A stretch of 64,000 bases of DNA, taken from assembly GCA_963969495.1 (NCBI GenBank), contig OZ018325.1, positions 200,481,946-200,545,945 on the forward strand. The letters run 5' to 3'. Below, piece after piece: positions 18,550-63,506 of this stretch (position 1 is its first letter; each line of letters begins with the position of its first letter). The position numbers and the translations under genes are program-made. A model generated the notes under the pieces. It was not told where the DNA came from. It searched no databases and worked only from the letters and a program-made list of their open reading frames with translations. This DNA comes from Ceratothoa steindachneri (taxonomy: Eukaryota > Arthropoda > Malacostraca > Isopoda > Cymothoidae).

Positions 18550-19046
18550 CCGGCGGGAGGCCACACGCTGGAACCGTGCCAGTATATACGGATGGCTTCA
18601 AGTCCCAAGATGGGGTCGGCTTCCACGCCGTATCCCCTCTGTTTGAAGTCAGCGGGGCTGTGCCAGGCGCTGCGTCTGTCTTCACGGCCGAGCTGGTGGC
18701 AATACACCAATCGGTACAGGAGATTACGCGACGTGCCCGGTTCGGAGATCGGATTGTGATCTATAGCCACTCACAAAGCGCCCTGAGTGCTCTCGTGGCA
18801 TTGGAATCTCCGCATTTCCTGGTTCGCGATATCCGTGAGGCCACGGTTTTGCGGATGTCGAGATTATCTTCTGCTAGGTTCCTAGACATGAAGGAATTGC
18901 GGGGAATGAGCGCGCCAAAGAGTCCGCGAGGACTCTGCGACCGGACCAGCGTTTCGCTCTTCCTCAAACCGACTACATGGCAGGAATACGTGCAGCTCTT
19001 CGGGTTGCCTGGCAAAGAAGATGGGAGACGGTCGAAGGGAACTTAA
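18550..19046 (+). pseudogene. RNase H domain, copy E
   Basis: A 170-codon frame from 18534 gives the longest RNase H reading in the family. VYTDGFKSQDGVGFHA holds the first Asp. FTAELVAIHQSVQEI holds the Glu. IYSHSQSALSAL should hold the third acidic residue but has His (YSHS instead of YSDS). The frame then shifts, and the GNERAKESA block is read only in another frame (about 18902-18930). The element-wide replacement of the last Asp (AK instead of AD) is present here too. It is inactive as it stands. Confidence 0.8.
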
Positions 19047-31734: not shown

Positions 31735-32210
31735 TCTGCTCCCAAAGCTTGTACTGCGCCGGCAGTATTGCGTTCGACCTTTTTGGAGCACACCTCGTGT
31801 CACGGTGGAACCGTGAGAATGTATACGGATTACTCCAAGTCCCAAGAGGGGTCGGCTTCCACGCCCTATTCCCTCTGTTTGAAGTCAGCGGGGGTCCGCC
31901 AGGCGCTGCGTCTGTCTTCACGGCCGAGCTGGTGGCAATACACCACTCGGTACCGGAGATTACGCGACGTGCCCGGTTCGAAGACCTGATTGTGATTTAT
32001 AGCGACTCTCGGGCCATTGGAATTTTGTCACATCCTGTTTTGCGATATCCGTGACGCCACAGTTTTGGCAAGCCGGGCGGTGGTCGAGATTATCTTCTCC
32101 TGGGTTCCTAGACATGTAGGAATTGCGGGTAATGAGCGCGCCAAAGAGTCCGCGAGGACTCGTCGCCTGGACCAGCGTTTCGCTCTTCCTCACACTGACT
32201 ACATGGCAGG
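31735..32210 (+). pseudogene. RNase H domain, copy F
   Basis: Blocks in order, in shifted frames: VRMYTDYSKS (first Asp; the usual Gly after it is Tyr), FTAELVAIHHS (Glu), IYSDSRAI (third acidic residue), then VEIIFSWVPRHVGIAGNERAKESA. Functional RNases H of this type usually have GNExAD, so the last acidic residue here is Lys. About 15 residues after YSDSRAI are missing relative to copy E. Confidence 0.8.
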
Positions 32211-35928: not shown

Positions 35929-36870
35929 AAACGTAAAACTAACGCATCCCCCTCTCCCTCGTAAAAATCAGCAAGAATAGAACGTAAAACTAACAAGAAT
36001 ATAACGTAAAACTAACGAGAATAGAAAGTAAAACTAACAAGAATAGAACGTAAAATTAACAAGAATAGAACGTAAAACTAACGAGAATAGAACGTAAAAC
36101 TAACGAGAATAGAACGTAAAACTAACAAGAATAGAACGTAAAACTAACAAGAATAGAACGTAAAACTAACGAGAATAGAACGTAAAACTAACAAGAGTAG
36201 AACGTAAAACTAACGAGAATAGAACGTAAAACTAACGAGAATAGAACGTAAAACTAACGAGAATAGAACGTAAAACTAACAAGAGTAGAACGTAAAACTA
36301 ACAAGAGTAGAACGTAAAACTAACGAAAATAGAACGTAAAACTAACGAAAATAGAACGTAAAACTAACGAGAATAGAACCAAAAACTAACGAGAATAGTA
36401 CCTAAAACTAACGAGAATAGAACGTCAAACTAAGGAGAATAGAAAGTAAAACTAACAAGAATAGAACGTAAAACTAACAAGAATAGAACGTAAAAATAAC
36501 GAGAATAGAACGTAAAACTAACAAGAATATAACGTAAAACTAACGAGAATAGAACGTAAAAAAAACGAGAATAGAACGTAAAACTAACGAGAATAGAACG
36601 TAAAACTAACAAGAGTAGAACGTAAAACTAACAAGAGTAGAACGTAAAACTAACAAGAGTAGAACCTAAAACTAACGAGAATAGAACGTTATACTAAATT
36701 CTAAAGAGAACAGAACGTCATACTAAATTCTAAAGAGAATAGAATGTCATACTAAATAGAATAGAACGTCATACTAAAGAGAATAGAACGTCATACTAAA
36801 GAGAATAGAACGTCATACTATCGAGAATAACGTAAAACTAACGAGAATAGAACGTAAATTAACCTGGAAA
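35929..36870. repeat. 22-bp minisatellite, about 40 units
   Basis: The unit is built on AGAACGTAAAACTAACRAG plus AAT. Units are highly similar to about 36680, with alternating GAATAG and GAGTAG forms. From 36690 the motif changes to ACGTCATACTAAA. Frames open across the array, such as the one near 36430-36612, are artefacts of the repeat. Confidence 0.95.
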
Positions 36871-37145
36871 AATCTTTAAACTAACGCGAATAAAAAGTAC
36901 AATTAATGCGGGTAAAAACGTAAAGCTAACGCGAAAAAACTTAGACCTAACGCGACAACGTAAACCTAAAGCGACGACGACAAGGTCAACCTAACACGAC
37001 AAGGTAACCCTAACGCGACGACAAGGTCAACCTACGCGACAAGGTAACCCTAACGCGACAAGGTCACCCTAACGCGACGACGATAAGGTCGACCTAACGC
37101 GACAAGGTAACCCTAACGCGACGACGACAAGGTAAACCTAACGCG
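36871..37145. repeat. Drifted tail of the minisatellite
   Basis: Shorter, more GC-rich units of about 16-24 bp, such as CGCGACAAGGTAACCCTAA and GACGACAAGGTCAACC, appear to derive by drift from the 22-bp array, since intermediates (AACGTAAAGCTAACGCG) lie between them at 36890-36960. It ends in GACGACGCCACGG, where copy G begins. Confidence 0.8.
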
Positions 37146-37159
37146 ACGACGCCACGGTT

Positions 37160-37225
37160 TTGGCGACCCGGGTGGATGTCGAGATTATCTTGTGCTGGGT
37201 TCCTGGACATTTGCAGATTGAGGGG
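37160..37225 (+). pseudogene. RNase H fragment 5' of the array, copy G
   Basis: Encodes ATRVDVEIILCWVPGHLQIE, the block before GNERAKESA in copy F (ASRAVVEIIFSWVPRHVGIA). It leads in frame into the repeat array. Confidence 0.85.
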
Positions 37226-38197
37226 AATGAGGGCGCCAAAGACTATGCGAGGAATGAGGGCGCCAAAGACTACGCGGAGAATGAGGGCGCCAAGGACTAT
37301 GCGGGGAATGAGGGCGCCAAAGACTACGCAAGGAATAAGGGCGCCAAAGACTACGCGAGGAATGAGGGTTCCAAAGACTACGCGAGGAGTGAGGGTTCCA
37401 AAGACTACGCGAGGAGTGAGGGCGCCAAAGACTACGCGAGGAATGAGGGTTCCAAAGACTACGCGAGGAGTGAGGGCGCCAAAGACTACGCGAGGAATGA
37501 GGGTTCCAAAGACTACGCGAGGAATGAGGATTCCAAAGGCTACGCGAGGAGTGAGGGCGCCAAAGACTACGCGGGGAATGAGGGCGCCAAAGACTACGCG
37601 GGGAATGAGGGTTCCAAAGACTACGCGAGGAATGAGGGCGCCAAGGACTACGCGGGGAATGAGGGTTCCAAAGACTACGCGAGGAATGAGGGCGCCAAGG
37701 ACTACGCGGGGAATGAGGGCGCCAAAGACTACGCGGGGAATGAGGGTGCCAAAGACTACGCGAGGAATGAGAGCGCCAAAGACTACGCGGGGAATGAGGG
37801 CGCCAAAGACTACGCGGGGAATGAGGGCGCCAAAGACTACGCGGGGAATGAGGGTGCCAAAGACTACGCGGGGAATGAGGGCGCCAAGGACTACGCGGGG
37901 AATGAGGGCGCCAAAGACTACGAGGAGATTGAGGGCGCCAAAGACTACGCGAGGAATGAGGGCGCCAAAGACTACGCGGGGAATGAGGGCGCCAAAGACT
38001 ACGCGGGGAATGAGGGTGCCAAAGACTACGCGGGGAATGAGGGTGCCAAAGACTACGCGAGGAATTAGGGCGCCAAGGACTACGCGGGGAATGAGGGCGC
38101 CAAAAACTACGCGGGGAATGAGGGCGCCAAAGACTACGCGGGGAATGAGGGTGCCAAAGACTACGTGAGGAATGAGGGCGCCAAAGACTACGTGAGG
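37226..38197. repeat. 27-bp minisatellite, 36 units, born in RNase H coding sequence
   Basis: The distance between the first unit start (37226) and the final partial unit (38198) is 972 bases, exactly 36 x 27. The unit translates to NEGAKDYAR or close variants (NEGSKDYAR, SEGAKDYAG). It equals the RNase H block NERAKESAR of copies E and F at the same position. The final partial unit runs straight into the next element sequence (GACCAAACCAACGTTTCGC against GACCAGCGTTTCGC in copy F). Because the unit has no stop in four frames, it creates long spurious open frames of about 300-370 codons on both strands. One unit has a TAG (38066-38068) in the element's frame. Confidence 0.95.
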
Positions 38198-38784
38198 AAT
38201 GAGGGCGACCAAACCAACGTTTCGCTCTTCCTCGCACCGACTACGGTGTAGGTATCAAGGCGGCAAAGGAGATGGGAGATCGCCGAGGGGAGCCCAAAGG
38301 TCCTCGCCATTGCGCCGCGGCTGTTCCCATGGACCTGCCGCAGGTTTCCGTCGTCCTTGAATTGGGCAGTCTCGGGACGACCGCCATTTGATGGTGCGCT
38401 CCCCGGTTCCTTATTGCGAGGACTGCGTTGTTCCCCGGACTGTTTGGAGAATCCTTGTTGAATGTCCCTGTCTGGGTCATCTTCGCGCACGTTACCTGTC
38501 CTTGTGCCGGGATGAGCGGGGGGCGAGTTCGTGGACTATCTGACTTTTTGGAGGAGCCTGGCCTCCCCGATTTTATTTGACTCCCTCTGGTCTCGGTGGC
38601 CTGCTCTTGCGTCGGGGAAAGGCGAGCCTGCGCCCGCTGCCGGAGCGTGCTTCCATCTTGTTTGTTTTTAATATTTTATTTTTGGTCTTTTGCACCTTTT
38701 TTTATTCTAGCTTAGCATTAGTCTATGGTTGATTGCTGAGACTTAAGAGCCAGTCCCCAGATTAGCTACCCCTAAAAAAAAAAA
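38198..38784 (+). other. ORF2 C-terminus and 3' UTR, copy G
   Basis: Frame-shifted C-terminal coding sequence (TVWRILVECPCLGHLRARYL-like at 38435-38500) and a T-rich 3' UTR. It ends CTTAGCATTAGTCTATGG and then GAGCCAGTCCCCAGATTAG, a variant of the AGGCAGTC.CCAGATG end of copy E, plus a poly(A) tail. Confidence 0.75.
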
Positions 38785-60610: not shown

Positions 60611-61110
60611 GGATCGAAAAAGTTAAGGGATAACTTCGTATAAGAACTCGCTTTCCAATTGATGCTCTTTCATCGCTGGTACGAAAAAGATACTTTCATG
60701 AAGTATCAGTTTCTGTAGGCCACTGCTGCCATTAAACAATAGGCTTGTTTAATCAGGAATAAATTAAATTAGTTGATATGAATAAAAATGACTTCTTTTT
60801 TTTTTACTCCTTTTGGTAACTATAAGAATAACCAATATAAATATCCCCCCTCTCCCCTGTTTCGTAGCTATTCCAATAGCCACTATGAAGGTTAAAACTC
60901 GATAATGCTTTGTTTCTGCCTCTTTGAATGGCGGCCGTTCAGAGTATCTCCCAAGTACGCTATGAAGGCCGCCACTCTTAATTGCTTACTCAGGATGAAT
61001 GACTTCACTATGTTAATTAATATGAATCTGTATCTCATCAACCAATGAAACTGTGGTTTGACAAGAAGCGTTTAGGAAGGTCATTATTATTGTTGAAAGT
61101 GTTTTGGTGT
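60611..61110. other. Non-coding AT-rich sequence
   Basis: No feature recognised. Confidence 0.45.
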
Positions 61111-61253
61111 TATGGTGGTATGATCTTTACACGATTTGTTTGGTTGGCTTTATGGTGGTATGATCTTTACACGATTTGTTTGGTTGGCTTTATGGTGGTA
61201 TGATCTTTACACGATTTGTTTGGTTGGCTTTATGGTGATATGATCTTTACATA
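61111..61253. repeat. 40-bp minisatellite, 3.5 units
   Basis: Units start at 61111, 61151 and 61191, with a partial fourth at 61231; each begins TATGGTGGTATGATCTTTAC. The first three are identical. The fourth has GATA for GGTA and diverges after about 22 bases. Confidence 0.95.
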
Positions 61254-62296: not shown

Positions 62297-62756
62297 CTTA
62301 GAGATCATTGAGTGTGTTGCTACGTACCTCGTTGATTTGGTGGCCAGAAGTGCGGATAGCTTCACTTGCTGCACTAGCAAGATAACCTGGTTCGAAATGA
62401 GATTTGTCGGCCGTCTTTTTATCCTTCTTAGCTGCATTAAGCTAATTACTATGGCGAGTAATTAGCTCAATAAGTTGGTTATTGAACCTTAGTTAGGTTG
62501 TGAGAGGCAAATGATTGCACACAGATTAGATGGAGATTCCGTATTTGATAATCGAACCGGATAATTTCTAGATAAAGTTAATTAACTAATTTTGTACATC
62601 CTGACTTTCCCTCCTATGTCGTCAAATGCAGCTCGCAAATTAGCCTTTCGAAACTGGGCCACCGACGCTCGACTCGAAGCGATGTAATTAATTACTCGCC
62701 GGAAAGATTTTGCTCTCTTGCCATGTAATGAAATCGTTAAAAGATTTATCCACAAA
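62295..62756. other. Non-coding sequence, no gene recognised
   Basis: No feature found. Confidence 0.45.
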
Positions 62757-63506
62757 CGGATCTCAGGTGTAGCATTGGCAATTGACCTACCAAGGGGTGT
62801 CAGGTGTAACATGGGCAATTGACATACCAACCGGTGTCAGGTGTAACATTGGCAATTGCCCAGCAAAAGGATGCCAGGTGTAACATGGGCAATTGATCAA
62901 CATAGGGATGCAGGTGTAACATGGGCAATTGATCAACATAGGGATGCAGGTGTAACATTAACAATTGACCAGCAAATGGATGTCAGGTGTAACATTGGCA
63001 ATTAACCAGCAAAGGGATGCCAGGTGTAACATTGACAATTCACTATCAAAGGATCTCAGGTGTAGCATTGGCAATTGACCTACCAAGGGGTGTCAGGTGT
63101 AACATGGGCTATTAACCAGCAAAGGGATACCAGGCAACATTAACAATTGACCAGCAAAGGGATGCCAGGTGTAACATGAGTAATTGACCAGCAAAGGGAT
63201 GCCAGGTGTAAGTAACATTGACAATTGTCCATCAAAGGATGTCAGGTGTAACATTGGCAATTGACCAGCAAAGGGATGTCAGATGTAACATGGGTAATTG
63301 ACCAGTAAAGAGATGCCAGGTGTAACATTGATAATTGCCCATCAAAGGGATGTCTGGTGTAACTCGCATTTGACCAGCAAAGTGATGCCATGTAAAACAT
63401 TGGCAATTGATCAGCAAAGGGATGTCAGGGGTAACATTGGCAATTGACCTACCAAGGGGTGTCAGGTGTAGCATTGAAAATTGACCAGGAAAGAGATATC
63501 AGGTGT
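62757..63506. repeat. About 37-bp minisatellite, roughly 20 units
   Basis: The unit is built on GATGYCAGGTGTAACATTGG followed by CAATTGACCAGCAAAGG. Units vary by substitutions and small indels (34-42 bp). GGTGTCAGG and GGATGCCAGG forms alternate irregularly. There are no unique spacers, so it is not a CRISPR-like array. Open frames here are repeat artefacts. Confidence 0.95.

Follow-up and report, generated by a model that had tools for sequence, protein, structure and literature searches.

A 27-bp minisatellite within a 5'-truncated LINE copy of Ceratothoa steindachneri, with one-unit and two-unit copies of its RNase H-coding unit elsewhere in the genome

Minisatellites derived from transposable elements (TEs) are already known to be common. 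In the human genome, 7,276 of 31,472 minisatellites were scored as TE-derived, and 601 of them were linked to L1 (Ahmed and Liang 2012, PMC3389668). In the Haber-Louis model, the unit of a minisatellite is bracketed by short direct repeats (as described in PMC6947457 and PMC3389668). Coding parts of retrotransposons have also given rise to satellite DNAs, such as PROsat and Pvc20 (L1 ORF2), HinfI (CR1 3' UTR and part of ORF2), and rye E3900 (gag), and satellites of a rodent, a seal, and chicken have been linked to parts of LINE ORF2 (PMC9659126). In the LTR elements of Lathyrus sativus (PMC7004042) and in soybean Gmr9/GmOgre (PMC3305785), an array located inside the mobile element occasionally lengthens.

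We analyzed a window of 64,000 nucleotides from the isopod C. steindachneri (C9:200481946-200545945), in which one LINE copy, designated copy G, contains a long array of 27-bp units near 200.519-200.520 Mb. As in the human TE-derived minisatellites, the tandem array comes from a stretch of an interspersed element; however, the LINE lineage and the host are different, and the one-, two-, and 36-unit states occur in one genome (PMC3389668). Two initiation models discussed in that paper fit copy G, namely slipped-strand mispairing with an incomplete terminal unit and flanking direct repeats of 5-10 bp. The incomplete last unit of the array is in line with the slipped-strand mechanism of Taylor and Breden (as outlined in PMC3389668 and PMC6947457). 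In most of the one-unit short-form copies examined, the unit lies between GCGGGGA and GCGAGGA at a spacing of exactly one unit length, which is the Haber-Louis arrangement, although the brackets are imperfect (6 of 7 bases equal; PMC6947457, PMC3389668). The repeat unit was supplied by a retrotransposon coding part, as in PROsat, Pvc20, HinfI, and E3900, but these are listed as satellite DNAs, whereas copy G has a single short array (PMC9659126). Copy G is also similar to the Lathyrus and Gmr9/GmOgre elements in having an array that can lengthen inside a mobile element; in those elements short arrays belong to the element itself, whereas nearly all of the copies examined here have one unit (PMC7004042, PMC3305785). 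Among the titles and opening lines of abstracts searched, largely outside the subscription literature, we found no minisatellite that had grown out of the RNase H motif of a LINE and whose one-, two-, and many-unit copies were present together in a single genome. A traceable seed and the different unit states at the same site are what copy G adds.

The array and its host LINE fragment

TRF detected a 27-bp array at 37222-38213 (36.7 copies, 91% matches, 0% indels, score 1555). When the array is cut in the RNase H frame, it consists of exactly 36 units with a total of 972 bases and then returns to the element (Table 1), in agreement with what had been read from the sequence alone. Minisatellites are composed of head-to-tail units of roughly 7-100 bp in arrays of about 0.1 to tens of kb, and the present array is within this range. 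Satellite DNA, by comparison, forms long arrays and/or occupies many loci. The array is a single 0.97-kb locus and no spread was detected; therefore, the term "satellite" used in the sequence-only reading was not retained.

Table 1. Positions of the features in the window
Feature	Positions	Strand	Description
Copy E, unit present once	18902..18928	+	NERAKESAR form
Copy F, unit present once	32128..32154	+	NERAKESAR form
Separate 22-bp minisatellite	35974..37147	+	AGAATAGAACGTAAAACTAACG; adjoins the LINE fragment directly
5' LINE remnant of copy G	37148..37222	+	RNase H coding (..VDVEIILCWVPGHLQIE); 5'-truncated at GACGCCACGG
Minisatellite array	37223..38194	+	36 head-to-tail 27-bp units of the type GGGAATGAGGGCGCCAAAGACTACGCG
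Partial, diverging 37th unit and right-hand junction	38195..38213	+	AGGAATGAGGGCG, followed by the element's own downstream sequence ACCAAACCAACGTTTCGC
3' part of copy G	38214..38784	+	Several deletions compared with relatives; 3' UTR; A-tract

In the RNase H frame, the units read GNEGAKDYA/R. They comprise 21 distinct sequences and have no indels, and 59 of the 972 positions deviate from the modal unit. The mean pairwise difference between units is 9.4%, and the variation is 11.8% in the first third of the array, 7.1% in the middle third, and 8.2% in the last third. A test for higher-order repeats gave only a weak excess of similarity at lags 3 and 5, reached by 2.5% and 2.4% of permutations, respectively (eight lags, uncorrected). 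The similarity of unit 36 to the partial unit that follows it was matched by none of 2000 shuffles. Unit 32 carries an in-frame TAG stop (38066-38068); therefore, no intact frame passes through the array in the RNase H phase.

The 75 bp on the 5' side of the array share 68 bases with L010, a related copy. When the first unit is included (37148-37253), this region is 75-92% identical to other genomic copies, and L010 is the best match (91.5%, E = 1.9e-37). In most of the copies matching this region, all or part of 38169-38521 continues the element past the single unit. The unit and both flanks are thus homologous to one element, and the array lies within its boundaries, as is expected of a TE-derived tandem repeat. 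The assignment of the flanks to the LINE family, proposed earlier, is borne out by these genomic alignments, and the proposed start at 37146 was correct within 2 bases. Copy G ends with an 11-base A-tract (38774-38784), and the combination of this tail with a 5' truncation is typical of LINEs. Element homology starts abruptly at 37148 and repeats lie upstream of this point. Therefore, copy G is a 5'-truncated fragment rather than the intact element that the sequence-only reading had implied, and a different minisatellite is present at its 5' edge. No target-site duplication of copy G was recognized by eye. Searches of the window with Pfam (six stop-to-stop frames) and Rfam gave no match.

The minisatellite at the 5' edge has a 22-bp unit and about 40 copies. 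According to TRF, the array proper spans 35974-36858 and passes gradually into degenerate repeats of 19-25/44 bp that extend to about 37147, and the GC content rises from about 30% to 53% toward the LINE fragment. We considered whether it could be a part of the element or the parent of the 27-bp array, and rejected both because no common unit was seen. The LINE may have landed at the edge of the 22-bp array, or the two may have met by deletion. Elsewhere in the genome, the 22-bp array has only approximately 70%-identical matches, which are located in a 24-bp array on C10 and in a 153-bp stretch at C9:178947694. The C10 match was rejected as a relative, since the 3.5 kb that were read contain a 24-bp array of a different consensus. 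The C10 array itself (C10:71818147-71827944) is about 10 kb long as judged from the match positions, and has 95% matches over the 3.5 kb. Two other tandem arrays were detected in the window by TRF: a minisatellite at 62753-63506 with a 37-bp unit, higher periods of 109 and 146 bp, and about 20 copies, and a nearly perfect, apparently recent 40-bp array at 61110-61251 (3.5 copies, 99% matches).

One-unit and two-unit copies of the RNase H motif

The LINE family was characterized using L010. Its 605-codon frame matches RNase_H (PF00075) with 28.4 bits (cut-off 25.8) and RVT_1 (PF00078) with 27.5 bits, the latter being just under the cut-off of 29.6 and covering only the end of the profile. The frame thereby combines reverse transcriptase (RT) and RNase H in one ORF, as in other LINEs with RNase H. 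Among the database relatives of the L010 protein, the best 18 are 42-47% identical across 98-100% of the query; both domains are precomputed for most of the 120 relatives listed. The named matches are mostly from arthropods (Petrolisthes, 39-46% identity; Procambarus, 40%; Araneus, about 35-38%), and they also include a rotifer and a few entries labeled as bacterial or archaeal. In a search against the sequences of solved structures, the RNase H matches were weak, the best having E = 0.035. Names such as X-element, BS, and jockey occur among the database matches but do not settle a putative placement in the I clade of LINEs, which is defined by reverse-transcriptase phylogeny; RT and RNase H are what was shown for the family.

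A W-[VIL]-P-[GS]-H...N motif is recognizable in 78 of the 120 relatives, and all 78 have N-x-x-x-D, as in GNERAD. The 27-bp unit corresponds to the GNE..A motif of the RNase H domain. The genome of C. steindachneri contains a long form (GNERADEGAKESA), which retains the aspartate of N-x-x-x-D, and a short form (GNEGAKDSA, GNERAKESA), in which it is missing. We take this aspartate to be a catalytic residue of RNase H. The array is derived from the short form.

Thirty-six copies that span the site, including copies E and F, were aligned. They form a non-random set, picked by similarity to copy G and by the search for two-unit copies; twenty loci were fetched around the best non-local matches, with 40 of 1,824 candidates scored. 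One short-form unit is present in 27 copies, 12 additional bases in five, two units in three (L040, L053, and L054), and a staggered duplication in one (L042). The alignment confirmed that copies E and F have a single NERAKESAR unit.

The same states were then counted by pattern matching across the genome. The short single unit followed by GAGGAC has 6,666 perfect matches. The pattern has two degenerate places, and at the three two-unit loci the second unit is also counted; L010 and L027 are examples of the short form. The long form, which is 12 bp longer (GNERADEGAKES), has 11,522 perfect matches; L012 (copy at 587, minus strand), L030, and L033 are examples of this form. A two-unit pattern of 35 places, in which up to 3 mismatches were allowed, gave 37 matches, 34 of them in the array and three elsewhere, and the reversed control gave none. 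The three other loci (C16:13486451, C4:129791538, and C9:37068612) have two tandem units with element flanks. A pattern for a duplicated long form recovered solely these three short-form loci. The staggered duplication is located at C5:89775382, and a deletion at the site prevents its classification as short or long. The corresponding pattern has 505 matches; among those listed in order of mismatches, L042 alone has fewer than two, and the others read as single-unit copies with substitutions. The resulting proportion, four loci against 18,188 sites or more, indicates an order of magnitude only, since the denominators count perfect matches alone and the two-unit search may miss older, more diverged copies.

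The three two-unit loci have a GCGGGGA junction in common, whereas many units of copy G read GCGAGGA. Therefore, the two-unit loci are parallel cases and not the ancestors of copy G. The loci on C4 and C9 also share one variant and may not be independent. The variant found in the first unit of copy G matches one other site, L061. This copy was rejected as a close relative of copy G because its similarity to copy G is no more than 74% on the 5' side and 67-74% on the 3' side.

The sequence-only reading held that the seed of the array can be named as an RNase H motif, and that copies with additional units or free arrays in the assembly would trace its origin. The named seed is supported by the 6,666 single-unit matches, the three two-unit loci, and the result of a genome search in which 451 bp of the array served as the query. 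That search, which skips very common words, revealed no second long array among its first-look candidates, of which 17 of 17 were scored. Two-unit copies were thus found at three loci, and free arrays were not detected among these candidates. An independent satellite that merely resembles the LINE, or was captured by it, would suit a repeat-prone region in which a second, different minisatellite adjoins the fragment. However, 75 bp of RNase H coding sequence run directly into the first unit, and the last unit runs on into the 3' part of the element. In addition, no second long array was found among the candidates scored, and the single-unit pattern occurs thousands of times, at the homologous element position in the copies examined. 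We regard this origin as extremely improbable.

Probable birth and growth of the array

The array is very probably a minisatellite that was born inside a dead, 5'-truncated LINE copy by a rare duplication followed by expansion in place. The starting state would be a 27-bp stretch encoding GNE-x-AK-x-x-A, bracketed by near-identical 7-mers 27 bp apart, as seen in the examined short-form copies. Twenty-three of the 27 short-form copies in the aligned set bear the anchor motif, and GCGGGGA and GCGAGGA are exactly 27 bp apart in 19 of these one-unit copies. Among 52 offsets tested, 27 ranks second and offset 11 is stronger. The present 5' bracket of copy G is GAGGGGA. Four of the five long-form copies in the set have the anchor motif, and in three of them GCGAGGA or GCAAGGA is 39 bp away; the fourth differs.

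Given this arrangement of the 7-mers, slippage or unequal exchange between these short repeats is the simplest explanation of the first duplication. The three two-unit loci suggest that such events would occasionally duplicate the 27 bp. Once two repeats lay side by side in copy G, slippage, unequal exchange, or conversion could have extended them to 36 units. This growth would have occurred in place after the insertion, with ongoing homogenization. Two other sources of instability were considered and rejected. A larger pre-existing internal repeat was not supported, because in five single-unit flanks the unit resembled the 29 bp after it no more than expected by chance (251-1432 of 2000 shuffles were equally good). 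Hairpin formation was not supported either, because five units folded as DNA were unexceptional (z = -1.13 and -1.52, with 31 and 12 of 200 shuffles equally good); in comparison, the 22-bp stretch gave z = 0.20 and the 3' flank gave z = -1.86.

Compared with the well-supported bases of the family, the 3' flank of copy G is changed at 51 of 302 positions and has also undergone several deletions. Its best genomic matches are mostly 68-83% identical, and a few pieces of approximately 50 bp are higher (40 of 5,128 and 40 of 704 candidates scored). These comparisons mark copy G as old or divergent. With no indels and a lower divergence than the 3' flank, the array seems younger than the insertion, but ongoing homogenization would yield the same picture. 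The substitutions in the two flanks do not differ significantly (5', 7 of 72; 3', 51 of 302; p = 0.15), the set used for the 5' comparison having been partly selected by 5' similarity.

The 3' flank (38195-38525) has 22 AT-to-GC and 18 GC-to-AT differences from the family, and the 36 other copies pooled have 116 and 504, respectively (Fisher p = 9.5e-7, with sites treated as independent). This contrast could be due to GC-biased conversion close to the unstable array or to descent from another subfamily. Copy G and L036 share a 3'-UTR stretch that is absent from L010; therefore, copy G may descend from a different subfamily.

The divergence of the units also bears on whether the array could have expanded in RNA or cDNA during reverse transcription and been inserted ready-made. 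LINE reverse transcriptases can jump on templates, and copy G is truncated close to the array, as expected if synthesis had stalled there. However, the units are 9.4% apart and the first third is more varied, which indicates stepwise growth over time, and the flank is more diverged than the units, which indicates that much of the array probably formed after insertion. Template switching is therefore an unlikely source of the whole array. The initial duplication may nevertheless have occurred at insertion, before the later growth of the array.

The length of the array rests on one assembly, and a misassembly is an alternative explanation of its size. However, the 21 distinct unit sequences, the length of 972 bp, which a single long read would span, and the chromosome-scale assembly (3.93 Gb in 529 contigs) make this very unlikely. 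A collapsed or slightly wrong unit count is possible, while an invented array is unlikely.

The coding phase of the units raises the question of whether (GNEGAKDYAR)n is a selected protein repeat of a domesticated gene. A 27-bp unit retains the frame, and an open frame of 308 codons spans most of the array. However, this frame has no Pfam match, the 5' end is truncated without the rest of the gene, and the stop in unit 32 lies within the array. Codon changes from the modal unit comprise 39 nonsynonymous and 19 synonymous changes, plus one stop. Reverse-strand frames of 386 and 351 codons are likewise open, as expected for a stop-free 27-mer. A selected repeat is thus scarcely credible. Since the copy is truncated and contains an in-frame stop, the frame has been retained not by selection but by the unit length of 27, a multiple of three. 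No function is evident for the array, which is most likely a neutral by-product.

The short form as a possible seed of minisatellites

All four tandemly duplicated loci, namely the array and the three two-unit loci, are of the short form. If duplications were proportional to the numbers of matched sites, a hand calculation gives a chance of about 0.02 that all four would be short-form, a figure to be read with the facts that copy G does not itself match the pattern and that the C4 and C9 loci may not be independent. The excess of the short form is a lead alone. A tentative explanation, to which we give a rather low probability, is that a latent minisatellite seed was created when the RNase H motif underwent a 12-bp deletion between the 9-mers GAGCGCGCC and GAGGGCGCC. 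The deletion would remove the conserved aspartate (GNERADEGAKES to GNEGAKES or GNERAKES) and bring GCGGGGA and GCGAGGA, otherwise 39 bp apart, to a spacing of 27 bp. A site that does not duplicate would thereby be turned into a seed borne by thousands of copies. The short form has two common junction variants, GAGGGCGCC and GAGCGCGCC, which look as if the deletion had occurred more than once.

In most cases the one-unit ancestor of a minisatellite no longer exists, which makes the beginnings of minisatellites difficult to study. In C. steindachneri, at least 18,188 perfect site matches (6,666 and 11,522), three duplicated loci, and one large array are present in one genome. Therefore, it could be measured, in this genome and its relatives, how often the first step occurs and how far it depends on the short repeats at either side. 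If the 12-bp deletion did create the seed, one LINE family would be a natural experiment on the rate of minisatellite birth, with well over ten thousand replicates. The array locus itself is ordinary, and its value lies in this large set of natural replicates.
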